Assembly (NCBI RefSeq): GCF_003335585.1
Contig: NZ_QBFD01000015.1
Span: 506,304 to 570,303 of the forward strand
Source of the DNA: Sulfitobacter sp. DFL-14
Lineage (GTDB): Bacteria; Pseudomonadota; Alphaproteobacteria; Rhodobacterales; Rhodobacteraceae
DNA length: 64,000 bases
Direction of reading: 5' to 3'
Shown piece by piece: positions 49,694-64,000 of the stretch; positions within the stretch are counted from its first letter, which is position 1; the number at the start of each line of letters is the position of its first letter. The notes beneath the pieces are model-generated. The model did no database searches. It was not told where the DNA came from and was given only the letters and a program-made list of their open reading frames with translations. The position numbers were made by a program, and so were the translations under genes.

Positions 49694-50389
49694 CTATTTT
49701 CCGAGCCGCTGATTCCACAGTTTTTCGTAATGTGGCATCGCCCTTTCAGCCAGGGCGGCCTGTTCAGCGTCGAGCCTGGGCAACGGCCCTTCCGCTCCGG
49801 CAAACCCCGTGCTCTGATGCACCGCGCCGTACCAATGACTGGCCCAGATTCCATCTTCCGCCCGTGGCCCTGCCGGCCATTTCAACATTGCGGGATCAAA
49901 CGGCAGATCAATTGCGGTACAGAGACCGCGCAGCGCCTGCTCGGGATTGGCACGAATATCCGTGCTGTCGATTACAAGCCCGCCGATCCTGTCAAACAGA
50001 CGCGCCTGCTGGACAAATCCGATGTCATCCAGCGTCGGCGCCTCGCGTTTGGCCGCATAGCTGGCAATCACCCGCACGGGATGGCGCAGCAGGTGGACAT
50101 GCACACATCCCTCGGCCCAGTCCATCGGCATGCCCGGCAACATGTGATGCGGCATATGCTTCATGTAAAGATGCGGTGAACCGCCCCGGGAACAGGCCGC
50201 CGAAACCTTTTCAGGGTCGGTTTCGTGGTGGTTGATGATGTCGTCCCGCATCGGATGGTCCAATTCGGACTGCACCAGATAGGCCGCGTAAAAGGGCTCG
50301 TCCATGACGGCAAAATCGGCTCTTGCGCCAAAACTGTACATCATCGCCGTGCTCAGATTGCGCGGCCCGGACCACATCGCGATGCGCAT
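49694..50389 (-). CDS. Sulfotransferase-fold protein
   Basis: A 231-residue cytoplasmic protein with the PAPS-binding-like loop MWSGPRNLSTAMMYSF at residues 5-20 and VHLLRHPVRVIASY, the second conserved P-loop-fold motif. Such proteins are annotated as sulfotransferase-like or branched-chain-aminotransferase-associated; activity is not established. It lies 14 bases after the class V aminotransferase, so it ends the leftward uptake operon. Missing typical 5'-PSB lysine would argue against true sulfotransfer; the loop here has SGPRNLS instead of KSGT. Confidence 0.7.
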   Translation of the reverse strand: MRIAMWSGPRNLSTAMMYSFGARADFAVMDEPFYAAYLVQSELDHPMRDDIINHHETDPEKVSAACSRGGSPHLYMKHMPHHMLPGMPMDWAEGCVHVHLLRHPVRVIASYAAKREAPTLDDIGFVQQARLFDRIGGLVIDSTDIRANPEQALRGLCTAIDLPFDPAMLKWPAGPRAEDGIWASHWYGAVHQSTGFAGAEGPLPRLDAEQAALAERAMPHYEKLWNQRLGK

Positions 50390-50403
50390 GGCAAATCCCT
50401 GTC

Positions 50404-51522
50404 TCAGATCAACGCTGCAAGCCCTTCGAACAGGCGCTGGACATGCGTTTCATCAGTCACTGTACCGGGTGAAATGCGCAAAATCCGCCCCCTTGCGTCA
50501 ACATGGACAGACCTGGCGCGCAACCCGTCTACAATGGCGACAGGATCACTTTCACCGGGCAATTGCAACATCACCGATCCGCCCCGGCGGTCCTCGTTTT
50601 CCGGGCTGGCAAGGGGCAGACCTGCTTCTTCTGCGCATGCGATCACCTGCCGCGCCAGGCTGCGGTTATGATCCAGCAATCCGGTTTGCCCCGCCTGCCA
50701 TTTCAGCGCGGGCACCGAGCCGACACAGGCCATGACAGAGGGCGTCCCATGTTCGAACCGCCGCGCATCAGGTGCATATTCGAACCTGTCCAGATCCCAG
50801 GAGAACGGGTTGTCCTGCGAGAACCAGCCCCGCAATTCCGGCTGACACCGCGCGATCAGATCGCTGCGCATCTGGATGATGCCGGCACCCGGGGTGCCGC
50901 AGAGCCATTTGAGGGAGGTCGAAACCACAAAATCCACAGGGGTTTCGGCCAGTGAAAAGGGCAAGATGCCAATGCCCTGGGTCAGATCGACCCCGACAAT
51001 GGACCCCATGCGCGCACCATGGGCGCTGAGCGCCTCAAGATCGCAACGATGCGATGCCGTGGAGGTGACGAACGTCAGCAGCGCCAGCCCGACGTCTGGC
51101 CCCCAGGATGCCATCATGTCTTCGTCCCGAACCCAGAATTCGCCTTGCCGCAGCGGTACTGTCTCAAGCGTGTATCCCAGCCGGTCCGCCATCCCGTTCA
51201 GCAGGAAATGCAGCGAAGGAAAGCAATCCGCCCCGACCAGCACCCGTCTGCCGCGCAAGACTTCATCGGGCAAACCGCCAAGGACTGAGAACAGTCCGGT
51301 TGTCACATTCTCTGCCGAAGTCAGCGTTCCCTCCGGCGCATCGATCAGGTCGCGCCAGAGGTCCAGAAATTCGGCGCGCGCGGTCAGCACCCTGGGCCAT
51401 TGCGCATCGTCATGACGGCCCCAATCTTCGGCAAAACCCGTCAATGCAGCGGCCATATCCTTGGCCTTGCCCGGATATTGTCCGATCGAATGATACAGGA
51501 AATAGGCGGGATCAGCGGTCAT
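50404..51522 (-). CDS. Class V aminotransferase-fold PLP enzyme, kynureninase-like
   Basis: A 372-residue PLP enzyme of aminotransferase class V. The internal aldimine lysine is K205 (STSLKWLCGTPG) with D179 (GVDLTQGIG) pairing the PLP nitrogen. The layout is that of kynureninases, which cleave kynurenine to anthranilate and alanine, but cysteine desulfurase- or isopenicillin-epimerase-like activity is also possible. It follows the ABC ATPase by 41 bases. With a kynurenine-formamidase/isatin-hydrolase-like enzyme in the divergent operon it hints at tryptophan- or indole-derived substrates. Confidence 0.8.
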   Translation of the reverse strand: MTADPAYFLYHSIGQYPGKAKDMAAALTGFAEDWGRHDDAQWPRVLTARAEFLDLWRDLIDAPEGTLTSAENVTTGLFSVLGGLPDEVLRGRRVLVGADCFPSLHFLLNGMADRLGYTLETVPLRQGEFWVRDEDMMASWGPDVGLALLTFVTSTASHRCDLEALSAHGARMGSIVGVDLTQGIGILPFSLAETPVDFVVSTSLKWLCGTPGAGIIQMRSDLIARCQPELRGWFSQDNPFSWDLDRFEYAPDARRFEHGTPSVMACVGSVPALKWQAGQTGLLDHNRSLARQVIACAEEAGLPLASPENEDRRGGSVMLQLPGESDPVAIVDGLRARSVHVDARGRILRISPGTVTDETHVQRLFEGLAALI

Positions 51523-51563
51523 GTTCAGTCTCTAATAAAGGATAACGGGCAGGTTCGGCGTGA

Positions 51564-52358
51564 TTACAGCCACTTCTGGAAAGGGTCTGGCAAGGGGATC
51601 GCCTGCAACAACTCCTGCGTATAACGCGCCTTGGGTGCATCGAAAAGCCGTGCCGTTTCTGCCTCTTCGACGATGACACCCTGATGCAGGACAACCACCC
51701 GGTTGCACAGACGCCGGATGACAGAGAGGTCATGGCTGATGAAAGCCAGCGTCAGGCCCAGATCACGTACCAACTCCCCAAGCAGATTCAGGACCTGCGC
51801 CTGAGACGACACATCAAGGCCGGAAACAATTTCATCGGCGAGGATGAAATCGGGTTGCAGCGCAATGGCCCGCGCGATGCCGACCCTCTGGCGCTGACCA
51901 CCGGACAATTCATGCGGATAGCGGCGCGAAAAATGGCGCGGCAGCCCCACCATATCCAATGCTTCGGCCACGCGGCCGGGAACCCCGTCGAACCCATGCA
52001 GGTGCAGCGGCCCCGCGATGATCCCGCCCACCCGGCGGCGCGGGTTCAGCGATGACATCGGGTCCTGGAATATCATCTGGAAGCGCCGCCGCAGGGGCCG
52101 CAGGGCATTTTCGCTCAGATGCGTGATGGTCTGCCCGTCAAAAACAACTTCGCCCGCAGTCGGCTCCAACAGCCGCAACATGGCACGGCCCAGGGTCGAC
52201 TTGCCGGATCCCGATCCGCCAACAATGCCCAGGACGGCCCCCTTGGGCACATCGAACGTCAGCCCTTTCAGGATCTCGATGCGCGGAGCAGGCCCTAACA
52301 AAGGCTTTCGGGTCATGTCCGGCAGGGACAGATGCAGATCCTTGATCTGGTACATCAT
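51564..52358 (-). CDS. Oligopeptide/dipeptide ABC transporter ATPase (DppF/OppF-like)
   Basis: A 264-residue cytoplasmic ATPase: Walker A GGSGSGKS at 47-54, LSGGQRQRVGIARA, Walker B ILADEIVSGLDVSSQ. It is the second of two ATPases of the uptake system, with IILxP-type tail. Its start overlaps the other ATPase by ATGA. Typical OppF proteins run longer at the C-terminus; this is slightly short but ends in the expected peptide-importer region. Confidence 0.9.
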   Translation of the reverse strand: MMYQIKDLHLSLPDMTRKPLLGPAPRIEILKGLTFDVPKGAVLGIVGGSGSGKSTLGRAMLRLLEPTAGEVVFDGQTITHLSENALRPLRRRFQMIFQDPMSSLNPRRRVGGIIAGPLHLHGFDGVPGRVAEALDMVGLPRHFSRRYPHELSGGQRQRVGIARAIALQPDFILADEIVSGLDVSSQAQVLNLLGELVRDLGLTLAFISHDLSVIRRLCNRVVVLHQGVIVEEAETARLFDAPKARYTQELLQAIPLPDPFQKWL

Positions 52359-53224
52359 CGCGCGCGCCTCGCGTCATGCTGGGCCACTTCGGCCTCCACC
52401 CCGTCAATGACCTCCTGCGACACGGGCGTCAGGCTCCCGGTCGGGTCGGTATAGGTCGGCGTTGCCGCCAGCAGCGCCGCCGAATAGGGATGGATCGGAC
52501 GCATGAAGAACCGATGCATCCGCGCCTCTTCCACCACTTTTCCGGCATAAAGAACGCTGAGCGTATCGCAGACTTTCGACACCACACCGAGATCATGGGT
52601 CACAAAAAGCAGCGCAGTCCCGTGGCGCGTCTGCATGTCCGCGATCAGGCGCAAGATCTGTTTTTGTACCGTGACATCAAGTGCGGTTGTCGGTTCATCG
52701 GCAATGATCAGACGCGGTTCTGCGGCAAAGGCCGAAGCAATCAGAATGCGCTGCCGCATGCCGCCTGACAGTTCATGCGGGTAATTCCGCATCACGCGCG
52801 CAGGGTCGGGGATGTGGACCTCTCCCAACAGCTCCAGCGCGCGGTCCTGCGCATCCTGCTTCGACCAGCCCAGGATATCGACCAGACGGCGTGTGATCTG
52901 CGGCCCGATCCGTTTCGACGGGTTCAGCGCGGTCAGCGGATCCTGCGGGATCAGCGCCGCCGTGGCCCCGATGCGCCTGCGCCGTTCAGCCGGAGGCAGG
53001 GACATCAGGTCGGTACCATCCAGCCATATCTCACCGCCCGATACGCTCAGTGCCCGCGGCAGGGTGCCCAGCACGGCCTTGCCGATCATGGATTTGCCCG
53101 CACCGGATTCACCGACCAGCCCATGCACCTGCCCGGCGGCGACATCCAGCGAAACCGACCGCAGGATCGGGCTGCCGTTCTTCAACCGGACCGACAGGTT
53201 GCGGATCGACAGGAAACTTTTCAT
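52355..53224 (-). CDS. Oligopeptide/dipeptide ABC transporter ATPase (DppD/OppD-like)
   Basis: A 289-residue ATPase: Walker A GESGAGKS at 38-45, LSGGMRQRILIA, Walker B LIIADEPTTALDVT, and the C-terminal HPYSAALLAATP segment typical of DppD/OppD. It overlaps the permease gene upstream by ATGA and the other ATPase downstream by ATGA. Confidence 0.93.
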   Translation of the reverse strand: MKSFLSIRNLSVRLKNGSPILRSVSLDVAAGQVHGLVGESGAGKSMIGKAVLGTLPRALSVSGGEIWLDGTDLMSLPPAERRRRIGATAALIPQDPLTALNPSKRIGPQITRRLVDILGWSKQDAQDRALELLGEVHIPDPARVMRNYPHELSGGMRQRILIASAFAAEPRLIIADEPTTALDVTVQKQILRLIADMQTRHGTALLFVTHDLGVVSKVCDTLSVLYAGKVVEEARMHRFFMRPIHPYSAALLAATPTYTDPTGSLTPVSQEVIDGVEAEVAQHDARRAR

Positions 53225-54072
53225 CTCAGCACCGGATCAAAGCGGTCTTTCAACCCTTCGCCCAATTGCGAGAAACTGAGCACCGTCAGGAACAGGGCGA
53301 TCAGCGGGAAGACCAGCACCCACCAGGCCTGATGGACCGATGTGCGCCCCTCTGCGATCATGCCGCCCCATGTCGGGCTGTCGGTCGAGATCGACAGGTT
53401 CACGAAGGACAGGATCGCCTCGACGATCACGGCGATCCCCATTTCCAGGGTCAGCAGCACAACGATGGTGGGCAGGACATTCGGCAGGATTTCCGTCAGC
53501 ATGGTGCCAAACCTCTTGCGCCCGGCCACCTGGGCAGAGGCGACGTAATCCATCGCGCCCTGGCTCATTGCTTCGGCGCGGATCACCCGGGCAAAACGGG
53601 TCCAGTCGATCACGACGATGGCAATGATGATCGACCACAGCCCCGGCCCCAGGACCGCAATCAGCAGAATGGCAAAAAGCACCGGCGGAAAGGCCATCCA
53701 GATGTCCACGAAACGGCTGATGATCCGGTCCGGCCAGCCACGATAATATCCCGCGATCAGGCCAAGGGCCGCGCCAATGATGCAGGTCAGCGTGCCTGCG
53801 ATCATTGCCACCTCCAGCGCCAGACGCGCACCATAAAGCATGCGCGACAGCACGTCCCGGCCAAGCGAATCCGTCCCCAGCCAGAAGCCCGGTTCTGTCC
53901 CGCTTTCCCAGAATGGCGGCAACCGGCCCAGGAACAGATCCTGCATCAGCGGATCCTTGGGCGCGATCCAGGGGGCGAATACCGCCCCCAGCACCAGCAG
54001 GGTCAGCCATCCTCCGGATAGCCAAAGCCGCAGACCCACAGGGCGGCGCAGATCTCCGCGGGCGTCACGCAT
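53221..54072 (-). CDS. Dipeptide-type ABC transporter permease (DppC-like)
   Basis: A 283-residue permease with about six membrane helices and the EAA loop (RAEAMSQGAMDYVASAQVAG) that contacts the ATPase. The N-terminal LFAPWIAPKDP-like segment is typical of DppC. It overlaps the upstream permease by 8 bases. Confidence 0.92.
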   Translation of the reverse strand: MRDARGDLRRPVGLRLWLSGGWLTLLVLGAVFAPWIAPKDPLMQDLFLGRLPPFWESGTEPGFWLGTDSLGRDVLSRMLYGARLALEVAMIAGTLTCIIGAALGLIAGYYRGWPDRIISRFVDIWMAFPPVLFAILLIAVLGPGLWSIIIAIVVIDWTRFARVIRAEAMSQGAMDYVASAQVAGRKRFGTMLTEILPNVLPTIVVLLTLEMGIAVIVEAILSFVNLSISTDSPTWGGMIAEGRTSVHQAWWVLVFPLIALFLTVLSFSQLGEGLKDRFDPVLR

Positions 54073-55075
54073 GGCGCAGCCTCGGGTTCAGCACGACATA
54101 AAGCATATCGACGGCAAGGTTCACGAGGGTGAACAGCATGGCAAACAGGATCACGATGCCCTGTATCAAAGGCAGATCGCGATTGATCACGGCATCAATC
54201 GCCATGTTGCCCAGCCCCTCATAGCTGAACAGGCGCTCGATGATCACGGTGCCGCCGATCAGAAAGGTGAACTGCACCCCGACCAGCGTCAGCGTCGGCA
54301 GGATCGCATTCGGCAATGCTTCGCGGGTGATGACATGATTCTCGCCATACCCTTTGGTTCTGGCCAGGGTCACGTAATCCAGATGCATGGTTTCCTTCAG
54401 CGATTGCTTGAGCAGTTGCGAGACGATTGCAGCCAGCGGGATCGCCAGGGCCAAGGCCGGCATGAACATATGCGCGGCAAGGTCGGCCATCACGTCGAAG
54501 CGCAGCCGCGCGATGGCCTCGAACAGGTAGAAGTTGGTGGTGAAATCGACATTGAGCGCGGGCGAAATGCGCCCCGATATGTGGAACACCGGCCAGAACA
54601 CCCCAAACAGCAGGATCAACACGAGCCCCCAGAGGAAATCAGGGATCGAAAGCGCCATTCCGGCAGTCACGTCGACCACGCCTTCGGTCTTGCCGTCGCG
54701 GAACCGGGTGCCGATCAATGCCAGGGTCACGCCCATCAGCACCGCCATCAGCAGCGCCATGATGGACAGTTCCAGCGTGGCCGGAAGCCGGTTGAGGACA
54801 AGCTTTGAAACTGGCTGGCGCAGGGAGATGGAGGTGCCGAAATCACCCTGCAAAACACCGCTCAGCCAGATCAGGAACTGGTCAAAGATGGATTTGTCGA
54901 AACCGTATTGCGCCTGCAACCGCGCAATATCGGCTTCGGTGGCCCCGGGCGGCAGCATCATCGCGATGGGATTGCCCGGCACCACCCGGATCACGACAAA
55001 GACAATCACCGCCACGCCAAACAGCGTGATGGCGGTGGTCAGCAGCCGCAGAAAGATCGTGCGCAGAAGTGTCAT
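54065..55075 (-). CDS. Dipeptide-type ABC transporter permease (DppB-like)
   Basis: A 336-residue permease: N-terminal helix (TAITLFGVAVIVFVVIRVVPGNP), PGD-like PGATEADIARLQAQYGFDK, about six helices and an EAA loop (LDYVTLARTKGYGE). Start MTLLRTIFLRLL was preferred; the upstream in-frame ATG at 55117 would add 14 unrelated residues. Confidence 0.92.
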   Translation of the reverse strand: MTLLRTIFLRLLTTAITLFGVAVIVFVVIRVVPGNPIAMMLPPGATEADIARLQAQYGFDKSIFDQFLIWLSGVLQGDFGTSISLRQPVSKLVLNRLPATLELSIMALLMAVLMGVTLALIGTRFRDGKTEGVVDVTAGMALSIPDFLWGLVLILLFGVFWPVFHISGRISPALNVDFTTNFYLFEAIARLRFDVMADLAAHMFMPALALAIPLAAIVSQLLKQSLKETMHLDYVTLARTKGYGENHVITREALPNAILPTLTLVGVQFTFLIGGTVIIERLFSYEGLGNMAIDAVINRDLPLIQGIVILFAMLFTLVNLAVDMLYVVLNPRLRHA

Positions 55076-55133
55076 GGAAACCCGGAAAAAGGGGTGGGGC
55101 CGCGCAGGCGACCCCACCAGTCAGGAAGAAGCC

Positions 55134-56660
55134 TCAGGCACGGGTCATCAGATGCGGCAACAGCGCGCCCGACCGGTGCGGCGTCACCTTGACGCCCGAC
55201 ACGAAAAGGATCGGCTGAACATATTGCAACAGCGGGATCACCTCGGCGTTTTCGGCAATCAAGCGGTCGACCGCCCTCCAGCCTTCGATTCGCTTCTCCT
55301 CGTCCGCTTCAGCCCAGAGCGGGAGGATCGCGTCGAAAGTTTCCTGGCCGTCCCAGACCGAGTGCGGCGAGGGCCCGAACATGGCATGGCCGGTGGAGGT
55401 TGACGGGTCGCCAATCGAATTGCCCCAATTGTAGAAAGCCGCGGGCGCAAGCGTGTCGGCGGCACGCAATTCATAGTGTTTGGCGATCTCATAGACCTCG
55501 ATCTCGGCCTCGATCCCGACACGACGCCAGAGCCCGACAATCGCCTGGATCATCTCGTAATCCTTGGGCTTGAACCCCTTTGTTGTCTGGATCTTGAACT
55601 TTACCGGGTTGTCGGGGCCGTAACCGCTGTCAGCCAGCAGCTTCTTTGACAGTTCCGGGTCAAAGGGAACCTTGGTGGTTTCGTCATAGGCGGTGTAATC
55701 CGGCGTCTGCAACGTGTCGATCGGAATGCCGTAACCCGACAGCAAACGGTCAATGATCAGCTTCTTGTCGATGGCATGTGCAGCCGCCTTGCGCACGTTC
55801 GGATCGGTCATCACCTCAATGTCATTCAGGAAGATCATGCCGATGTCCGAAATCGGCTCTGCCACGCCATTGATACCGTCCTTGGCCTTCAGCCGGTCGA
55901 ACTCTTCATAGGGCACTTCAAGCGTCACATGGGAATTGCCGGATTCAATCTCGGCGACGCGGCTGGCCGCATCGGTCACGAACTTGATCGTCACAGACTT
56001 GAACTCCGGCGCCCCGCCCCAGTAGTTTTCATTGGCCTTCAGCCGGACAAAGGCGTTGCGTTCGAATTTTTCCACCATGTAGGGGCCGGTGCCGATGGGT
56101 GCTGCCTCGAACCCTTCTGCGCCTACTTCCTCGTAATATTTCTTGGGCAGGACATAGCCGGTGAGAAAGCTCATCCACTTGAAGAAGGTCGGCTCAAATT
56201 CCTTGACGTCCGCCGTCACGCGACTGCCTTCGGCGGTGATGTTATCAACCTTGCCCCAGATGAACTGGATGGGGTTGCCGGTTTCCGGATTTGCCGCCCG
56301 TTGCAGCGACCATGCGACATCCTCGGCAGTGAAAGGATCACCGTTGTGCCATGTCACACCCTCGCGCACATCCATCCACAGTTTTGTGTTGTCCTCGTTC
56401 CAGCCCCAGTCGGTGATCAGACCGGACCCGAAGGACAGGTCGGGGTTCTGGTGGATGAAAAGATCGAAAACCGATTGATAGAAACCCTGGATGGTCGGGT
56501 TGACCGCAGATGGCCCGACAGTCGGGTCCCAGCTGGGTAGGTTTACGTTATAGGCGATCACCAACTCGTCGATCTCCTGGGCAAAGCTGGGCAGACCGAC
56601 AGTTGCAAAAGCAGCGGCCGCCGCTGATGTCTTGAGCAGACTTCTTCTTGAAAGTGACAT
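55134..56660 (-). CDS. Family-5 ABC solute-binding protein
   Basis: A 508-residue periplasmic binding protein. The Tat-type signal SRRSLLKTSAAAAAFA begins at residue 4, and cleavage would follow SFA. Two full lobes are present (WMDVREGVTWHNGDPFTAEDV; NDIEVMTDPNVRKAAAHAIDKKL). It supplies the substrate to the DppBCDF-like importer. GGGGAAGAACA precedes the ATG. Substrate may be an oligopeptide or another amino-acid-like compound; family-5 proteins often take non-peptides. Confidence 0.93.
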   Translation of the reverse strand: MSLSRRSLLKTSAAAAAFATVGLPSFAQEIDELVIAYNVNLPSWDPTVGPSAVNPTIQGFYQSVFDLFIHQNPDLSFGSGLITDWGWNEDNTKLWMDVREGVTWHNGDPFTAEDVAWSLQRAANPETGNPIQFIWGKVDNITAEGSRVTADVKEFEPTFFKWMSFLTGYVLPKKYYEEVGAEGFEAAPIGTGPYMVEKFERNAFVRLKANENYWGGAPEFKSVTIKFVTDAASRVAEIESGNSHVTLEVPYEEFDRLKAKDGINGVAEPISDIGMIFLNDIEVMTDPNVRKAAAHAIDKKLIIDRLLSGYGIPIDTLQTPDYTAYDETTKVPFDPELSKKLLADSGYGPDNPVKFKIQTTKGFKPKDYEMIQAIVGLWRRVGIEAEIEVYEIAKHYELRAADTLAPAAFYNWGNSIGDPSTSTGHAMFGPSPHSVWDGQETFDAILPLWAEADEEKRIEGWRAVDRLIAENAEVIPLLQYVQPILFVSGVKVTPHRSGALLPHLMTRA

Positions 56661-56685
56661 TGTTCTTCCCCTGTTTTTCAATTTT

Positions 56686-58254
56686 TTAGTTTCCGACAAG
56701 TTTTCTGGCCAGAAGGGTGCCGGGTCCCGCTCCTGTGCCGCCACCGGGCCAGACTGCAGCGCCGGTGTGATAAAGATTTCTGATCGGCGTTGTCCCGTCG
56801 GCATAACCGCGTGCGGGACGGTTCATGAAATGCTGGTGCAGATGATGGCTGCCACAGACCTGATCGCCCCCTACGAGGTTGGGATTGTCCGCCTCGAACA
56901 TATCCGGGGTCACCACGTGTTTTCCGATGATGTTTTCACGGGTGCCGGGTGCGTAACGCTCCAGGATATCCAGCGCGCGTTCCGCAAAGGGTTCTGCGGC
57001 ATCCTGCCAGTTTCTGGCATCAATGGTGCCCGCTGCATCCCCCTTTATCTGGCCGGGAGCCATCCGCACCTGAAGCCATAGGATATGTTTGCCCGCCGGT
57101 GCGCGCGATGGGTCGACAACTGTCGGCTGCCCGCAGACGATCACCGGCTCCTCCGGCAATTGCCCGGCCATGGCCTGCGCATAGGTTCGCGCCATCTGGT
57201 CCATTGAGGGCGCCAGATGAACATAGGCAAATCGTTTCAACTCGGCGGCGGGCCAGTTCGGCAAACTGTCCATGGCCAGATGGATCATCATCGTGCCCGG
57301 CGCATGCTGGAACGTCTTCATCGCGCGCTCGTGGCGGGGGTCGCCCGTGCCACCGGTCAATTTCATCAGGCCGCGCGGTGACAGATTGGCGATCACCGCC
57401 TTTTCCGCCCGGACCACCGTGCCATCGGACAGTGTAATCCCAATCGCCCGCCCGGCGACCTGTTCGATGCTGCTGACAGATGTGCCGCACTGCACCGACC
57501 CGCCGCGCGCCTCGATCATCGCGACCATGGCGCTGGTAATCGTATCGGCGCCACCCTGCCCCAGCACCATGCCAAAGGCCTGGCCTGCCATCCCCTCCAG
57601 ATAGGGAAAGACAGCACCGCCCGCGATGTCGGGTGCAAAGTCCAGATGCATGCCCCAGGCGGCCAAAGTCGCCTTGACGTGATCATTCTCAAATGTCTGA
57701 TCCAGCCAGGCCCGCGACGACATCGTGAGGAACCGCGCCAGATCAAGCGATCCTGCCGTGCCGCGACGCCACCATGTCTTGCCCATAAGGGTGCCCAGCG
57801 CCCGCAGGCTCATCGGGCTGCCCAACACGCCGAGGATCGCCTCTGCGTCGGCGGGAAAACTTTCGGTCAGCTGAGTCCATGCCGCCGCATCCGCATCGGA
57901 AAACCCGCGTATCCGCGCGGTCGTGAGTGCCGTGTCGCTCGACACGCCAAGCCACTTTCCATCGGGAAACAGACTGGCAAACGGATTGGCTGTGGGCGCA
58001 AAGGCCAGCCCGTGCTGCGCCAGTTCCGCGCCGTGTTGCTGGTGAAAGGCAGAGCCGGCGAACAGCGACAGGTTCATCGCCGCCCAATCGTGACGGAAGC
58101 CCGGCAAGGTATATTCGCCGGTTTTCACCGCACCCCCCGGGTTGGCGTTCTGTTCGTAGATGGCAACCTTCCAGCCGCGCGACACAAGATGACACGCACA
58201 GGCAAGACTATTGTGTCCTGCGCCGATGATAATAGCGTCGGGATTCTGCGTCAT
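56686..58254 (-). CDS. FAD-dependent oxidoreductase, phytoene-desaturase superfamily (leftward copy)
   Basis: A 522-residue flavoprotein of COG1233 type. The FAD motif GAGHNSLACA starts at residue 11 and the C-terminal HTGAAVWPGGGTGAGPG closes the FAD site. This broad family includes carotenoid desaturases, but there are no carotenoid genes here. A second, divergent member lies 0.9 kb away. Its start MTQNPDAIIIG has AGGAG about 10 bases upstream. It leads the ABC-importer operon, so it probably oxidises the imported substrate or a derivative. Confidence 0.82.
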   Translation of the reverse strand: MTQNPDAIIIGAGHNSLACACHLVSRGWKVAIYEQNANPGGAVKTGEYTLPGFRHDWAAMNLSLFAGSAFHQQHGAELAQHGLAFAPTANPFASLFPDGKWLGVSSDTALTTARIRGFSDADAAAWTQLTESFPADAEAILGVLGSPMSLRALGTLMGKTWWRRGTAGSLDLARFLTMSSRAWLDQTFENDHVKATLAAWGMHLDFAPDIAGGAVFPYLEGMAGQAFGMVLGQGGADTITSAMVAMIEARGGSVQCGTSVSSIEQVAGRAIGITLSDGTVVRAEKAVIANLSPRGLMKLTGGTGDPRHERAMKTFQHAPGTMMIHLAMDSLPNWPAAELKRFAYVHLAPSMDQMARTYAQAMAGQLPEEPVIVCGQPTVVDPSRAPAGKHILWLQVRMAPGQIKGDAAGTIDARNWQDAAEPFAERALDILERYAPGTRENIIGKHVVTPDMFEADNPNLVGGDQVCGSHHLHQHFMNRPARGYADGTTPIRNLYHTGAAVWPGGGTGAGPGTLLARKLVGN

Positions 58255-58279
58255 GCGCTCAAGGCTCCTTGCATAAGAT

Positions 58280-58299
58280 AATTGCAAACGCATGTAATT
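58280..58299. promoter_or_regulatory. Candidate MarR operator between divergent operons
   Basis: AATTGCA-AACGCA-TGTAATT is a 20-base pseudo-palindrome (6 of 7 arm bases pair), the size and AT-rich edge pattern typical of MarR-family sites. It lies in the 110-base divergent gap, adjoining the rightward promoter-like element. A second TTGCAT/TTGCAA arrangement overlaps its left side. Confidence 0.45.
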
Positions 58300-58328
58300 T
58301 TGTCTAGCATTGATTCATCTACTATAGC
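58300..58328 (+). promoter_or_regulatory. Putative rightward promoter of cyclase-ior operon
   Basis: TTGTCT and TATAGC are 17 bases apart and match the consensus at 4 of 6 positions each. The pseudo-palindrome abuts the -35, so a bound MarR protein could exclude RNA polymerase. Confidence 0.4.
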
Positions 58329-58364
58329 GTGAAGCCAAGCACGCAGATCCAGGGAGACGATCAA

Positions 58365-59156
58365 ATGAATGCGACGGATGTTGTAAGCAATCTGGGGGCA
58401 ATGCTGGCCTCCGGCGGTGTTGAGGTGGTTGATTGCACGGGTGTTCTCGGGCCGAATACCCCGATCCTGCAATTGCCACCGGATTTCGCCAAAAACACGC
58501 CGAAAGTCGAAATTCACAAGATTTCCGAATATGACAGCGACGGCCCGTTCTTTGCATGGAACTGGATGGTTCTGGGCGAGCATACGGGCACCCATTTCGA
58601 TGCGCCGCACCACTGGATCACCGGCAAGGACCACGCCGACGGATATACCGACAAGCTGGATGTGCAGCGCCTGATCGCGCCGGTCAACGTGATCGACTGC
58701 TCCAGCGAAGCGGCAGAGAACGAAGACTTCCTCCTGACCGCCGACCACATCAAGGCCTGGGAAAAGGAACACGGAGAGATCAAGGCAGGCGAATGGGTGG
58801 TGATGCGCACCGACTGGGATTCGCGTGCCGATGACGAAGCCCGCTTTCTGAACGCGGACGACACCGGCCCGCACAGCCCCGGACCAACACCTGAAGCCAT
58901 CGAATACCTGCTTGGCAAGAAGATCGTCGGATGGGGCACGCAATGCATCGGCACCGACGCCGGTCAGGCCGGCGGGATGGAACCGCCCTTCCCTGCCCAT
59001 AACCTGCTGCACCGTGACAATTGCTTTGGCCTCGCATCCCTGGCCAATCTGTCCAAGCTGCCGGCCAAGGGTGCCGTACTGATCGCAGCCCCGCTCAAGA
59101 TCGAGAACGGCACAGGCAGCCCCATTCGCGCGCTGGCACTTGTACCCAAGGGTTAA
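58365..59156 (+). CDS. Cyclase-family metal hydrolase (kynurenine formamidase / isatin hydrolase-like)
   Basis: A 263-residue cytoplasmic metallohydrolase of the cyclase family. The metal motif HxGTHxDxPxH is complete (H73, H77, D79, H83), a pattern shared by kynurenine formamidase and isatin hydrolase. The ATG at 58365 follows GGGAG by 7 bases; a GTG at 58329 would add 12 residues. The protein ends in LALVPKG. It leads the rightward operon, so it probably opens a cyclic amide or lactam. Known relatives also act on other amides; substrate is unproven. Confidence 0.85.
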   Translation: MNATDVVSNLGAMLASGGVEVVDCTGVLGPNTPILQLPPDFAKNTPKVEIHKISEYDSDGPFFAWNWMVLGEHTGTHFDAPHHWITGKDHADGYTDKLDVQRLIAPVNVIDCSSEAAENEDFLLTADHIKAWEKEHGEIKAGEWVVMRTDWDSRADDEARFLNADDTGPHSPGPTPEAIEYLLGKKIVGWGTQCIGTDAGQAGGMEPPFPAHNLLHRDNCFGLASLANLSKLPAKGAVLIAAPLKIENGTGSPIRALALVPKG

Positions 59157-59159
59157 AGG

Positions 59160-60722
59160 GTGGCGACGGTCGATCATCTGATCATCGGATCAGGCATCAA
59201 TGCCCTGGTCGCGGCGGCCATGCTGTCGCGCAAGGGTGACTCCGTGCTGATGATCGAACGTGAGGACAGGATCGGGGGCTGCATGTTCACCTCCGATCAG
59301 GTCACGCTGCCGGGGTTCCACCATGATGTGATGGCCGCGACCTTCGTTCTGTTCCTGACCGGCCCCGCGCATGAGGCTTTGGGCAGCGACCTGGCAAAAC
59401 ACGGGCTTGAGTTTTGTCATACCCCACACCCCACGGCCGTGCTCAGGCCGGATGGCAGTGCGCTGACCCTGACAATGGACCGCGACAGCAACATCAGAAC
59501 CTTCAATAGCCGTTGCGCCAGTGACGGTGACCAGCATGGCGCGGATGTGAGCGGGGTCGAACAGGACGCAGCCTTCCTTTTTGCCCTTCTGGGTCAGCCG
59601 CTCTGGTCCGGAAAAACGGCTCTGTTGCTGGCAAAACAGGCATGGAAGCGCGGTGTTGGCCCGCTGAAGACATGGTTCGGGGAGGCCTTGGAACCGACGC
59701 GTGGCTGGCTTGAGACGCGCTATCAAAGCGCCGATGTGCAGGCGCTTTGGGCGCCCTGGGTGCTGCACGTCGGCCTGACGCCGGAAGCCAGCTACAGCGG
59801 TCAGATGACCCGCGTGATTGCATTCGCGCTGGAGGCTGCGGGCGCGCCCGTGGTCAAGGGCGGCGCGGGACAGGCCGCTGCCGCATTTGCGTCTCTGATA
59901 AAGGCAAACGGTGGGGAAATCCGCACCGGGGTGGAGGCCGCCAGCATCCTGACAGAGGGCGGCAAAGCCATTGGCGTGCGCACCAGTGAGGGTGAAGAAC
60001 TGCGGGCCCGCAACGTGATCGCCAGCACCGCACCTGGCCAGCTTTACGACGATCTGCTCAAGGCAGAACCACTGCCTGAACCGACAAAGAAATTCCGCCA
60101 CGGGCGGGGCAACTTCCAGCTCCACTATGCGCTCGACGGACCGGTTGAGTGGGAGGCCGAAGGGCTCGAAGATGTCGCGCTGATCCACCTCGCCGACGGG
60201 ATAGATTCCGTATCCAAATCAAGCAACGAGGCGGAGCGGGGCATGTTGCCCGAAACGCCCACGATCTGTGTCGGGCAACCGCACCGGCTGGACCCGACCC
60301 GTTGCCCCGAGGGCAAGGCGATCCTCTGGCTGCAGATCCCCGATGCCCCCCGCGTGATCAAGGGCGATGCAGCGGCAGAGATCGACACCAATCCCGACTG
60401 GACCGAGACCATGCGCGAGGCCTATGCCGACCGGATCGAGAACATCCTGAAACGGCATATCCGGAATTGGGATGACATCCGCCTCGCCCGCAGGGCCTAT
60501 TCCCCGGCGGACCTGGAAGGCATGAACATCAACCTCGTCGGCGGCGACCCCTATGGCGGTGCCTGCACGATTGACCAATTCTTTGTCTGGCGCCCCTACG
60601 CCACGCAGTCTAACAACGCCACGCCGATCAAGGGGCTTTACCACATCGGTGCATCGACTCATCCCGGGCCGGGCCTGGGCGGCGGTTCGGGCTTCAACAT
60701 TGCGAAAGGTCTGGGCGCATGA
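59160..60722 (+). CDS. FAD-dependent oxidoreductase, phytoene-desaturase superfamily (rightward copy)
   Basis: A 520-residue COG1233 flavoprotein, GTG start three bases after the cyclase stop with AAAGG just upstream. FAD motif IIGSGINALVAA at 8-19; C-terminal HIGASTHPGPGLGGGSG. It is clearly homologous in plan to the leftward copy but divergent in sequence, so each may catalyse a different oxidation step. It overlaps marR by ATGA. Confidence 0.82.
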   Translation: MATVDHLIIGSGINALVAAAMLSRKGDSVLMIEREDRIGGCMFTSDQVTLPGFHHDVMAATFVLFLTGPAHEALGSDLAKHGLEFCHTPHPTAVLRPDGSALTLTMDRDSNIRTFNSRCASDGDQHGADVSGVEQDAAFLFALLGQPLWSGKTALLLAKQAWKRGVGPLKTWFGEALEPTRGWLETRYQSADVQALWAPWVLHVGLTPEASYSGQMTRVIAFALEAAGAPVVKGGAGQAAAAFASLIKANGGEIRTGVEAASILTEGGKAIGVRTSEGEELRARNVIASTAPGQLYDDLLKAEPLPEPTKKFRHGRGNFQLHYALDGPVEWEAEGLEDVALIHLADGIDSVSKSSNEAERGMLPETPTICVGQPHRLDPTRCPEGKAILWLQIPDAPRVIKGDAAAEIDTNPDWTETMREAYADRIENILKRHIRNWDDIRLARRAYSPADLEGMNINLVGGDPYGGACTIDQFFVWRPYATQSNNATPIKGLYHIGASTHPGPGLGGGSGFNIAKGLGA

Positions 60723-61195
60723 AGCCACAGGATACGGAAAAGGAATCTCTTCGATTGGGCGAAATGGGCCTGGAAAACTTCGCCCCCTATCTGATGAACC
60801 GCATAATTGGCCGCTACAATGCCTCGCTGTCTTCGGAAATGGCAGAGCTGGGGCTGACGACGCCGCAGATGCGGTCACTGGCGGTGCTGTCCGTCATCGA
60901 CGGGATCCTTATTCGCGAACTTGCGGTCTATGCCGTGGTTCAGCAATCGACACTCAGCCGCGCGCTGGACGCGCTGGCCGTGTCCGGACTGATCCGCCGC
61001 GAGACCGACGAAAAAGACAGCCGCGCGACACGGGTGTTCCTGACCGACGCGGGGCGCGAGGCCTATGACCGGCTCTGGCCCCATATGTCCGCCTCCTACG
61101 AGGCGATGTTCAAGGGCATCAGCGCGCCTGAACAACGCAACTTTGTCGCCACGCTGCAAACCATGCTGCGCAACATACGAAAACACGACTTTTAA
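60719..61195 (+). CDS. MarR-family transcriptional regulator
   Basis: A 158-residue winged-helix regulator. Residues about 55-110 (IRELAVYAVVQQSTLSRALDALAVSGLIRRETDEKDSRATRVFLT) carry the recognition helix and the DxR wing. It sits inside the rightward catabolic operon (ATGA overlap with the FAD gene, 12 bases before iorA), which fits a ligand-responsive local repressor. The candidate operator lies in the divergent promoter region. Confidence 0.9.
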   Translation: MKPQDTEKESLRLGEMGLENFAPYLMNRIIGRYNASLSSEMAELGLTTPQMRSLAVLSVIDGILIRELAVYAVVQQSTLSRALDALAVSGLIRRETDEKDSRATRVFLTDAGREAYDRLWPHMSASYEAMFKGISAPEQRNFVATLQTMLRNIRKHDF

Positions 61196-61207
61196 GAGGA
61201 TACTTCG

Positions 61208-63358
61208 ATGGCTGAACGATCCTTCAAGGCGGAGGTGGAACACCTGCGCAAAGGCAACGGTGACGTGTTCACCGGCGAAGGAATCCTGGCGATCACCAAG
61301 GCGCTTCTGGAAAACGGCGTTGGATACGTGGGCGGCTATCAGGGCGCACCGATCTCTCACCTGATGGACGTTCTCGCCGATGCCGAAGAGCTGATGGCGG
61401 AGCTGGGCGTGCGGTTCGAGGCCAACGCCTCCGAAGCGGCCGCCGCCGCGATGCTGGCCGCCTCCGTCCATTATCCGATCCGTGGCGCGGTGACCTTCAA
61501 GGGTCCGGTCGGCGTCAATGTCGCGTCAGATGCGCTGGCCAATCTGTCTTCATCCGGCGTGAATGGCGGCGCGTTGGTGATCGTCGGCGAAGACTATGGC
61601 GAAGGCTCCTCCATCATGCAGGAGCGGTCGCATGCCTTTGCCATGAAGTCGCAGTTCTGGATGCTGGACCCACGCCCCAACCTGCCCAGCATCACCAAGG
61701 CGGTCAAAGACGGCTTTGAGCTGAGCGAGGCATCGAACACCCCCGTGATGCTGATGGTGCGGATCCGGTCCTGTCACGTCACCGGCAGCTTTGCGACCAA
61801 GGACAATGTTCCGCCCCCGCTGACAGTGAAACAGGCCATCGCGAACCCGCAATCTGATTTCAACCGCGTCGTCCTGCCACCGATGAGCTACATGCACGAA
61901 CAGGACAAGATCAAGAACCGCTGGCCGGCGGCGGAAAAGTTCATCGTGGAAAACCAGCTGAACGAACACTTCGGCCCAAAGGATGCCAAGATCGGCATCG
62001 TCGTGCAGGGCGGCATGTACAACGGCCTGATCCGGGCGCTGCAACGCCTGGGGCTGGCCGACCTCTTTGGCCGGACTGACGTGCCGATCTATTGCCTGAA
62101 TGTCACATACCCCCTTGTCAGAGACGAATTTGACGCCTTTTGCGAAGGCAAGGATCACATTCTGGTCGTCGAGGAAGGGCAGCCCGAACACATCGAACAG
62201 CACCTTGGTTCGTTTCTTTACAAGGTTGGCCGGCGGCTAAAGCTTTATGGCAAGGACCTATTGCCGATGGCGGGCGAATACACCGGACAGGTGATGCTGG
62301 ACGGCGTTACCGGATTCCTCAAAGCCGCGGCGCCCGAGATGTTGCCGGGGAAGGTCCGCGCACCGAATGCCGAAGAACCCAGGATCCCTGACCTGAGCAA
62401 GACCGTGCCGATCCGGCCGCCCGGCTTTTGCACCGGCTGTCCAGAACGCCCGATCTTTGCGGGGATGAAGCTGGTCGAACAGGAATTGGGCAAGCACCAG
62501 ATCACCGGCGACATCGGATGTCACCTGTTCGGGTCGCTGCCGCCGTTCGAGATCGGGGGCGCGACAATGGGCTATGGTCTTGGTCCGGCCTCAAACGCCG
62601 CTTTTGACGGCGGTGGCGAACGCAGGGCAATCTCCATGCTGGGGGACGGGGGTTTCTGGCACAACGGGCTGTCATCCTCGATCGGGAACATGGTGTTCAA
62701 CAAGTCCGACAATGTGGTCGTGATCGTGGACAATTACTATTCCGCTGCCACCGGCGGCCAGGATGTGCTGTCATCCCGCGCGCATAACGACACGAAAGCT
62801 ACCAACAACCCGATCTCCGCCGCGCTCAAGGGCGTCGGTGTGGAATGGATCAGGCAGATTGACCATACCTATGACGTGGGCAAGGTGCGCGACACCCTGC
62901 GCGAGGCGCTGACAACGGACTTCAAAGGTCCGAAGGTGATCGTCGCCTCCTCCGAATGCATGCTGAACAAACAGCGTCGGGAAAAGCCCATCCGGAACAA
63001 GGCGTTCAAGGATGGACGGCGCGTCGATGTGCCTCGCTTCGGGGTCGACAGCGATGTCTGCACCGGCGATCACGCCTGCATCCGGCTGTCGGGATGTCCT
63101 TCGCTGTCATTGAAACGGCTCGACGATCCGCTGCGTGACGATCCGATCGCCCATATCGACCAGACCTGTGTCGGCTGCGGCAATTGCGGAGAGGTGGCAG
63201 ATGCCGCCGTGCTGTGCCCCTCCTTTTACCGCGCGGATGTGGTGCACAACCCCGGTGGTTTCGAGACCTGGCGGGCCGGGTTGCGCAACCGGGTCATTTC
63301 CTGGCTTCAGGCCCGGCGTGATGCCAAACGGCTGCGCCTGACCGGGGCGCCCACATGA
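61208..63358 (+). CDS. iorA: Indolepyruvate:ferredoxin oxidoreductase-like, alpha subunit
   Basis: Oxidatively decarboxylates aryl-pyruvates to acyl-CoA with ferredoxin. The 716-residue subunit has an N-terminal pyrimidine-binding region (YQGAPISHLMDVL, FEANASEAAAAAM), a TPP motif GDGGFWHNGLSSSIGNMVFNK with DNYYSAATGG, and C-terminal iron-sulfur motifs. The second cluster is intact (C654, C657, C660, C670). The first reads C618-TG-D621-HA-C624 then C630, with Asp in place of one cysteine. It overlaps iorB by ATGA. Confidence 0.9.
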   Translation: MAERSFKAEVEHLRKGNGDVFTGEGILAITKALLENGVGYVGGYQGAPISHLMDVLADAEELMAELGVRFEANASEAAAAAMLAASVHYPIRGAVTFKGPVGVNVASDALANLSSSGVNGGALVIVGEDYGEGSSIMQERSHAFAMKSQFWMLDPRPNLPSITKAVKDGFELSEASNTPVMLMVRIRSCHVTGSFATKDNVPPPLTVKQAIANPQSDFNRVVLPPMSYMHEQDKIKNRWPAAEKFIVENQLNEHFGPKDAKIGIVVQGGMYNGLIRALQRLGLADLFGRTDVPIYCLNVTYPLVRDEFDAFCEGKDHILVVEEGQPEHIEQHLGSFLYKVGRRLKLYGKDLLPMAGEYTGQVMLDGVTGFLKAAAPEMLPGKVRAPNAEEPRIPDLSKTVPIRPPGFCTGCPERPIFAGMKLVEQELGKHQITGDIGCHLFGSLPPFEIGGATMGYGLGPASNAAFDGGGERRAISMLGDGGFWHNGLSSSIGNMVFNKSDNVVVIVDNYYSAATGGQDVLSSRAHNDTKATNNPISAALKGVGVEWIRQIDHTYDVGKVRDTLREALTTDFKGPKVIVASSECMLNKQRREKPIRNKAFKDGRRVDVPRFGVDSDVCTGDHACIRLSGCPSLSLKRLDDPLRDDPIAHIDQTCVGCGNCGEVADAAVLCPSFYRADVVHNPGGFETWRAGLRNRVISWLQARRDAKRLRLTGAPT

Positions 63359-64000
63359 ACCTGGTCCTTCCACAGAAATCGCCCGATCCCCGCGTCGGCG
63401 ACATCATCAAGCTTGCCGTGATGGCGGTGGGCGGTCAGGGCGGCGGTGTTTTGACCGGCTGGATCGAGGCGCTGGCCAGAGCCCAGGGATATGCCTGTCA
63501 GGCCACCTCTGTCGCCGGTGTTGCACAACGCACAGGGGCCACGATCTATTACGTTGAAATGGCGAAAAAATCTGAATTAGAGCCTGTTTTTGCGCTCGCA
63601 CCTGCAGGTGGTGACGTTGATGTGCTGATCGCTGCGGAAATGATGGAGGTCGGTCGCGCAGTGATGCGCGGCTTTGTCACCCCGGACCGGACGACGCTGA
63701 TCGGTTCCACCCACCGCGCCCTTGCGGTGTCGGAAAAGATGGCACCCGGCGACGGGATCGCGGACGCAGACGAAGTGCGCGCCGCAGCCGAAATCGCGGC
63801 GCAAAAGCTGATCCTGGCCGACATGGATGGTCTGGCCGTTGCCGAGGGTTCCGTGATTTCCTCCAGCCTGTTCGGCGCGCTTGCGGGGTCCCGGGCGCTG
63901 CCCTTCCCGCGCGAAGCCTTTGAGGATGCCATTCGCGCCAGCGGCAAGGGCGTAGATGCATCGCTCAGGGCCTTTGCCGCCGGTTATGACGCCGCGCAGA
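63355..64000 (+). CDS. iorB: Indolepyruvate:ferredoxin oxidoreductase-like, beta subunit (cut by right edge)
   Basis: Reads MNLVLPQKSPDPRVGDIIKLAVMAVGGQGGGVLTGWIEA and then SVAGVAQRTGATIYYVEM, the gamma/catalytic-type domain of 2-oxoacid oxidoreductases (GGQGG motif near residue 30, the V-A-Q-R-x-G segment near 60). About 215 residues are visible; the rest, including any DUF6537-like C-terminal extension, lies beyond the window. It starts within the iorA stop by ATGA. Confidence 0.88.
   Translation, partial: MNLVLPQKSPDPRVGDIIKLAVMAVGGQGGGVLTGWIEALARAQGYACQATSVAGVAQRTGATIYYVEMAKKSELEPVFALAPAGGDVDVLIAAEMMEVGRAVMRGFVTPDRTTLIGSTHRALAVSEKMAPGDGIADADEVRAAAEIAAQKLILADMDGLAVAEGSVISSSLFGALAGSRALPFPREAFEDAIRASGKGVDASLRAFAAGYDAAQ

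Follow-up and report, generated by a model that had tools for sequence, protein, structure and literature searches.

Which compound is taken up and broken down by the two divergent gene clusters at the right-hand end of a 64-kb stretch of the Sulfitobacter sp. DFL-14 genome? This window (C15:506304-570303 of genome G000, 5.7 Mb) had been described, in an initial annotation made from the sequence alone, as holding two back-to-back operons around a 110-bp promoter region. The divergent arrangement was borne out (positions 58255-58364), and the Dpp importer, the two COG1233 flavoproteins, the cyclase, the MarR regulator and IorAB listed there were all recovered by open reading frames (ORFs) and family matches—with iorB present but cut by the window end, so that the rest of it lies outside. 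On balance, we consider it probable that these genes form a two-operon, single-regulon island degrading an indole- or oxindole-type compound via isatin, with IorAB making 2-aminobenzoyl-CoA. The island is a real, single and very probably co-regulated catabolic unit, and its substrate is most likely an indolic compound. In the scheme we propose, the Dpp-type ATP-binding cassette (ABC) system of the leftward operon would import the precursor, and FAD1 would start its oxidation. FAD2 would convert dioxindole to isatin, isatin hydrolase B (IH-B) would open the ring to give isatinate, and IorAB would join isatinate and CoA to 2-aminobenzoyl-CoA by oxidative decarboxylation. The CoA ester would then pass to an enzyme of the 2-aminobenzoyl-CoA monooxygenase/reductase (ABMR) type encoded elsewhere in the genome or, via a thioesterase, to anthranilate, with MarR controlling the divergent promoter.

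The core unit was defined as 11 genes, i.e., dppABCDF, FAD1, cyclase, FAD2, marR, iorA and iorB. Their conservation was counted in named loci—the best 80 of at least 548 FAD2 relatives, dominated by close kin, the best named one being from Sulfitobacter sp. EhC04 (93%). The 11-gene count was restricted to loci in which FAD2 has flanks of 8.5 kb or more to either side, which kept 58/80 loci and dropped 22/80. The features are as follows:

49694..50389, minus strand: PF19798 sulfotransferase-fold protein, outside the unit; homologue in 1/80 named loci
50404..51522, minus strand: class-V pyridoxal phosphate (PLP) enzyme, remotely kynureninase-like, accessory; homologue in 16/80 named loci
51564..52358, minus strand: dppF-like ABC ATPase, core; PF00005, with oligo_HPY below its cut-off; in 57/58 named loci
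52355..53224, minus strand: dppD-like ABC ATPase, core; named by eye; homologue in 57/58
53221..54072, minus strand: dppC-like permease, core; named by eye; 57/58, homologues annotated ABC transporter permease
54065..55075, minus strand: dppB-like permease, core; named by eye; 57/58, homologues annotated ABC transporter permease
55134..56660, minus strand: dppA-like family 5 substrate-binding protein, core; PF00496 244 bits, TAT signal match below cut-off; 57/58
56686..58254, minus strand: FAD1, COG1233/CrtO-like flavoprotein, core; NF045689 200 bits (cut-off 1000); 57/58
58255-58364: divergent intergenic region, 110 bp
58278..58308: conserved 31-bp promoter/operator element; leftward promoter-like TAGACA-17-AATTAT, rightward TTGCAA-17-TAGCAT by eye
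58365..59156, plus strand: IH-B, 263 aa, core; 4j0n profile match, 230/263 identical
59160..60722, plus strand: FAD2, COG1233/CrtO-like flavoprotein, core; NF045689 164 bits (cut-off 1000); proposed to act on dioxindole to give isatin
60719..61195, plus strand: MarR regulator, core; closest solved structure 3cjn, then 7kym
61208..63358, plus strand: iorA, 716 aa, core; TIGR03336 280 bits (cut-off 650.9); proposed isatinate oxidoreductase alpha
63355..64000, plus strand: start of iorB, core; POR domain and DUF6537, 511-aa protein cut by the window end

The best-anchored step of the scheme is the hydrolysis of isatin, and the identity of the cyclase supports it directly. The protein carries HTGTHFDAPHH, matching the metal motif HxGTHxDxPxH, and a profile built from 17 cyclase homologues matched IH-B (4j0n, 4m8d) over residues 1-263 with 536.9 bits. 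The same profile gave 318-322 bits with isatin hydrolase A (IH-A) entries and ca. 28 bits with kynurenine formamidases; the cyclase also stays below the kynurenine formamidase cut-off (TIGR03035, 34 vs 223.05 bits). Moreover, the exact 4j0n sequence is encoded within a complete 11-gene cluster in Roseibium aggregatum IAM 12614 (L081), which anchors a structurally characterized enzyme in the island. LaIHB of Labrenzia/Roseibium aggregata (4j0n/4m8d) is homologous to the window protein over its full length and shares the motif, and its gene stands in R. aggregatum within the same set of 11 genes. Judged by this homology, the cyclase is isatin hydrolase B; the initial annotation had named isatin hydrolase among the members of the cyclase family. 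Mn-dependent isatin hydrolysis is reported for LaIHA and LaIHB in the accessible text of PMC6117287, which names no pathway genes, operon or gene cluster for isatin hydrolase in the parts available.

A second direct support comes from gene conservation. A single pathway had been proposed, with the co-occurrence of its genes in homologous neighbourhoods as the way to check it; all 11 core genes, marR among them, stand together in 55 of the 58 adequately flanked named loci, and the promoter element described below follows both halves of the cluster where it is split. The three incomplete loci lack marR and iorAB (L072), iorAB (L078) or dpp, FAD1 and iorAB (L103). In a count over the order, FAD2 matches at E 1e-60 were found in 23/244 genomes (own genome included), with the second match, the FAD1 gene, close to the first in 22 of the 23; G108 carries a FAD1-like gene alone. 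Seven of 21 loci in this sample met the flank limit and four of these seven held all 11 genes, while in the incomplete ones a gene was either missing or located past the end of the stretch or contig. Of 102 mapped loci, which include some genomes twice, 89 have FAD1 and the cyclase gene pointing away from each other, 98-202 bp apart; in four the two lie on the same strand, and in nine one of them was not found. Synteny of the block extends over Rhodobacterales and Hyphomicrobiales, so the grouping of these genes is not due to chance.

To the right, iorB extends 890 bp beyond the window and ends at L005:6194, i.e., window position 64890. The first long ORF after it encodes a glycosyltransferase protein, and we therefore read the rightward operon as cyclase-FAD2-MarR-iorA-iorB. 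Genes for the alpha and beta subunits of protocatechuate 3,4-dioxygenase, both above their cut-offs, were seen ca. 12 kb past iorB (L005:18046-19400), with the glycosyltransferase gene between them and iorB.

The divergent region contributes a third direct support, a shared element, ATAWTTGCAAAYGCATNTAAATTTGTCTAGCAT, the strict core of which fits 75 of 93 intergenic stretches; among the 18 that fail it, 12 were viewed, and most of these are close variants (L053 is not). When seven records were searched with up to three mismatches, and with the reversed pattern as a control (0 in all seven), the element occurred once in each of G000 (all 5.7 Mb), G002, the R. aggregatum genome G615 and the Sulfitobacter sp. 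M368 plasmid, and twice, 66 kb apart, on a Sulfitobacter indolifex plasmid. On the S. indolifex plasmid, the site at 106.75 kb lies between FAD1 and FAD2, whereas the one at 40.75 kb precedes cyc-marR-iorA-iorB; since both halves of the split cluster keep the element, we read them as one regulon. The closest solved relatives of the MarR protein are 3cjn (190 bits) and 7kym (85 bits), the latter a structure from an auxin-regulator paper, and MarR would bind the 31-bp element and thereby control the divergent promoter.

How isatinate would be processed is a question of what IorAB does. The initial annotation had assigned it to arylpyruvates; this is probably not the case. IorA falls short of the indolepyruvate ferredoxin oxidoreductase model TIGR03336 (280 vs 650.9 bits), the genome has two other, long Ior proteins that are 30% similar to the island IorA, and the clade to which IorA belongs is linked to isatin hydrolase. 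At a clade threshold of at least 60% identity, IorA was found in 18 of the 299 phylum genomes searched—eight of them from one genus—and an isatin hydrolase of the IH-B family (search at 1e-50) in 25 of 398. An isatin hydrolase gene is present in 16 of the 18 IorA genomes and lies on one contig with IorA within 30 kb in 14; in G459 and G525 the two genes are on separate contigs. Conversely, at least 22 of the 25 isatin hydrolase genomes carry IorA of this clade, six of them being known from stretches L193, L196, L202, L204, L207 and L209. In an IorA tree of 37 rows, with labels assigned from gene maps, "beside isatin hydrolase" (a label that reaches ca. 27 kb for L260, L263, L265 and L266) takes 4 changes vs 10.3 in shuffles. 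IorA proteins at 50-54% (L254-L259, six rows) form a separate supported clade, left out of the class at 60% or more, and neither isatin hydrolase nor an ABMR-type gene was found in the stretches fetched around these IorA/IorB genes. No solved structure related to IorA was found by phmmer at E 1e-5.

Chemistry points the same way. Isatinate is an aryl 2-oxoacid (2-aminophenylglyoxylate), and a 2-oxoacid oxidoreductase acting on it would yield 2-aminobenzoyl-CoA. The phenylglyoxylate oxidoreductase of anaerobic aromatic degraders makes benzoyl-CoA from an aryl 2-oxoacid and CoA; by description, this phenylglyoxylate:acceptor oxidoreductase resembles the proposed reaction in its substrates and differs in its subunit set. 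A protein that matches NF006101 (1306 bits, above the cut-off of 1078) is encoded on contig C12, near tryptophan dioxygenase and kynureninase genes, and its presence is a further direct support. We take NF006101 to be the ABMR family, and the protein would act on 2-aminobenzoyl-CoA. ABMR-type homologues (73-74%) adjoin dppF of the cluster in L195-L197, and others (46-56%) lie near isatin hydrolase and/or IorAB in L199, L202, L203 and L205; an ABMR-type gene occurs in 7/20 isatin hydrolase stretches overall, and also in L261, L262 and on the Tsukamurella plasmid L187. Given the co-occurrence of the IorA clade with isatin hydrolase and the ABMR-type gene, the best reading is the conversion of isatin via isatinate to 2-aminobenzoyl-CoA, and IorAB probably acts on isatinate rather than on arylpyruvates. 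In the literature within reach, in which most subscription papers were not covered and an earlier description may thus exist, only PMC9613470 joins indolepyruvate ferredoxin oxidoreductase with isatin, and a search directed at isatinate, with the same coverage, found no mention of it in the papers returned.

For the oxidation steps upstream of isatin, both flavoproteins were modelled with AF2 (pLDDT 86.8 for FAD1 and 83.4 for FAD2) and adopt a carotenoid-desaturase-like fold, the closest one for FAD1 being the carotenoid desaturase 4rep. Fold searches with both returned carotenoid desaturases first, followed by nicotine and amine oxidases among others, and neither protein reaches the CrtO beta-carotene ketolase cut-off of NF045689 (200 and 164 vs 1000 bits). 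In L183, L208 and L187, FAD2 homologues occur without FAD1 and in the company of a monooxygenase, a short-chain dehydrogenase/reductase (SDR) and an isatin hydrolase-type cyclase. Dioxindole (3-hydroxyindolin-2-one) occurs in the iif pathway, according to the available text of PMC6221969. An SDR acting after an oxygenase should yield dioxindole, so FAD2 most simply makes isatin; from these neighbourhoods and the chemistry, it probably oxidizes dioxindole. FAD1 and the Dpp genes are both present in 57 of the 58 named loci and both absent from the 58th, and FAD1 therefore probably acts on the compound that the importer brings in. What this compound is, and which step FAD1 performs, we can only guess: the DppA-type protein is closest to 5u4o (E 1.9e-38), neither the nearest solved binding proteins nor the fold searches named a ligand for the importer, and the differing neighbourhoods of FAD1-like relatives in Cedecea, Agrobacterium leguminum, Salinirubellus and Dietzia gave no substrate hint; a region from Neorhizobium carried no annotation.

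A more specific version of the route is conceivable at a tentative level. An oxindole-type compound would be imported by Dpp, and the paralogous, carotenoid-ketolase-like FAD1 and FAD2 would, with no oxygenase involved, oxidize a single ring carbon in two steps, from the CH2 of oxindole via the CHOH of dioxindole to the C=O of isatin, after which IH-B and IorAB would yield 2-aminobenzoyl-CoA and bypass free anthranilate; loci with the PLP gene could feed from oxidized tryptophan, through a retro-aldol cleavage of dioxindolylalanine to isatin and alanine. Oxygenase genes do occur around some loci. StyA-like indole monooxygenase genes lie within ca. 10 kb in 8/80 named loci; none is present in the window, and G000 gave no match to the Azospirillum monooxygenase in a search run without a positive control. 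Of the 94 loci whose neighbouring genes were clustered, with genomes partly repeated, 15 have a luciferase-like monooxygenase (LLM) gene near the island and 13 have one for a flavin reductase (L099, L110, L111, L113, L118, L120-L122, L124, L130, L132, L134 and others), perhaps representing another entry step.

The island shares much with the iad loci of Variovorax, Bradyrhizobium and Ruegeria pomeroyi, for which isatin and isatinic acid are given as intermediates in the literature available to us. According to the same sources, these loci have a cyclase-family IadI, the IorAB homologues IadA/IadB and MarR—carried on a megaplasmid in R. pomeroyi—and the island likewise combines IorAB homologues, an isatin hydrolase-type cyclase and MarR. 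Unlike them, it has FAD1, FAD2 and the Dpp importer instead of a Rieske oxygenase, CoA ligase and thiolase. PF00848, the Rieske oxygenase (IadDE) family, has no match on contig C15 (six in the genome, one on contig C4), the Rieske oxygenase gene of C4 has no match in the window, and neither the CoA ligases nor the thiolase (IadF, IadG) gave a tblastn match (1e-5) in the window or L005 when the genome's own iad-type genes (L189) were used. We therefore rejected the island as an iad locus, having no Rieske oxygenase on its contig. A separate iad-type locus is found on C4 (L260, G000:C4:70000-89900; L189, G000:C4:86000-105900), with a Rieske oxygenase, CoA ligases, a thiolase, a tripartite ATP-independent periplasmic transporter, two MarR genes, IH-A and its own IorAB. 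Its IorA (64%) and IH-A genes, 11.7 kb apart, are the genome's second such pair, and a 4HBT thioesterase gene adjoins its iorB.

These facts bear on the idea that the island degrades indole-3-acetic acid (auxin), with FAD1/FAD2 replacing the iad Rieske oxygenase. Isatin hydrolase, IorAB and MarR are indeed common to the island and iad loci (accessible text of PMC9613470), and the cyc-marR-iorAB half adjoins iad-type genes in Paracoccus saliphilus and, in Sulfitobacter sp. D7, is separated by ca. 20 kb from thiolase-SDR-cyclase genes of the iad type. The lack of ligase and thiolase matches, the existing C4 locus with its own isatin hydrolase and IorAB, and an importer of a different kind nevertheless make this unlikely. 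Because cyc-marR-iorAB is found apart from the other genes and near iad-type ones, the half leading from isatin to the CoA ester seems to be a lower module that is portable, with FAD1/FAD2/Dpp as one of several upper modules. A Rieske gene of the iad type (64%) is also present on the S. indolifex plasmid. On two Sulfitobacter plasmids (L211:7860-8822, L267:20416-21378), a gene of the dihydrodipicolinate synthase family immediately precedes the lower module.

Other upper parts are seen further afield. In Azospirillum thermophilum (L183), an SDR, a StyA-like monooxygenase, a flavin reductase and a transporter accompany a FAD2 relative (58%) and an isatin hydrolase-type cyclase, and L208 has the same kinds of genes (FAD2 relative 41%); both differ from the island in their StyA-like monooxygenase. 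The Tsukamurella plasmid L187, from another phylum (actinobacterial), combines FAD2-like (40%), IorA (61%), IorB (40%) and cyclase (42%) proteins with an ABMR-type gene; there, a monooxygenase resembling flavin-containing monooxygenases, an SDR, a nitrilase-type gene and major facilitator superfamily transporters replace FAD1 and Dpp. The Providencia indole cluster includes, in the accessible text of PMC9871250, a 1613-bp oxidoreductase gene without an assigned role and a PF13557 transporter that resemble, by description, the FAD2 relative and transporter of L183. Set against these systems, the island is a new variant of isatin-route indole/auxin catabolism, not a new kind.

The initial annotation had also drawn on aromatic amino acid breakdown, in which IorAB would turn arylpyruvates such as indolepyruvate into aryl-acetyl-CoA, kynureninase would make anthranilate and the cyclase would be a kynurenine formamidase. 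The family names of IorA and IorB (IOR) and a weak TIGR03035 match of the cyclase (34 bits) fit such a pathway, but the scores with TIGR03336, TIGR03035 and TIGR01814 are all below their cut-offs. A class-V PLP enzyme is indeed present, but its likeness to kynureninase is distant (TIGR01814, 45.8 vs 246.4 bits; 27%, over 272 residues, when compared with the other kynureninase of the genome, encoded on C12), which leaves no basis for anthranilate formation by kynureninase at the island. Its homologues occur in 16/80 named loci, and we rejected the kynurenine pathway as the core. The sulfotransferase, which had likewise been placed in the pathway, was rejected as a member of the unit, its homologue being found in 1/80 loci (L059 of Sulfitobacter sp. 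EhC04, the closest relative). Moreover, C12 already holds a kynureninase gene above the cut-off (273.4 vs 246.4 bits), a tryptophan dioxygenase gene just under its own cut-off (381.8 vs 390.7 bits) and the ABMR-type gene. With the two other Ior proteins of the genome and the IorA tree added to this, an arylpyruvate role for IorAB is disfavoured and the amino acid pathway as a whole quite unlikely.

Several observations weigh against the isatin-to-CoA route that we prefer. Isatin hydrolysis, by close homologues, is to our knowledge the sole activity of the chain that has been measured. G492 and G262 carry the IorA clade and gave no isatin hydrolase match (their place among the 398 genomes being deduced), G017, G468 and G551 have isatin hydrolase and no such IorA in stretches of ca. 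20 kb, and IorA lies within 11/20 isatin hydrolase stretches. Of the seven records searched for the promoter element, two, the Tritonibacter and Paracoccus plasmids, gave no match. NCBI names NF006101 a salicylyl-CoA 5-hydroxylase/oxidoreductase, and an ABMR-type gene lies near the cluster in just 9/80 named loci. Finally, iorAB homologues belong to iad loci (available text of PMC9613470), and in Variovorax the nine-gene iadC-K2 region, without iorAB homologues, suffices for anthranilate formation; a C7H7NO compound, fitting 2-aminobenzaldehyde, was detected there (both from the accessible parts of PMC12633357). The detection of C7H7NO in strains with the whole iadC-K2 region, which does not include iorAB, fits plain decarboxylation of isatinate to 2-aminobenzaldehyde, followed by oxidation to anthranilate, perhaps in iad and likewise in the island, with IorAB performing another oxidation. 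At our locus we regard this as very doubtful, given that no decarboxylase-like gene was recognized among the 11 core genes by ORFs and family matches, and that an isatin hydrolase gene accompanies IorA in 16 of the 18 genomes with this clade. A role in detoxification rather than growth, in which the island would remove isatin and indoxyl that mixed communities produce from indole, would suit the best-anchored step, isatin hydrolysis, and the StyA-like genes near 8/80 loci, but it is highly improbable: the dedicated five-gene importer, the CoA-type oxidoreductase and the ABMR-type gene nearby in some lineages suggest a gain of carbon or nitrogen.

The preferred route via isatin and 2-aminobenzoyl-CoA bears on enzymes and organisms alike. 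Isatin hydrolase B, for which we found crystal structures and no pathway in the literature accessible to us, now has its place in an island of 11 genes that is conserved in many Alphaproteobacteria from the sea and from soil. For the step from isatinate to anthranilate when bacteria degrade auxin and indole, to which no enzyme was assigned in the parts of the literature available, IorAB is a concrete candidate that can be assayed. Marine algae and bacteria such as Sulfitobacter use indolic compounds to signal to each other, and the island bears on which organisms remove these signals.

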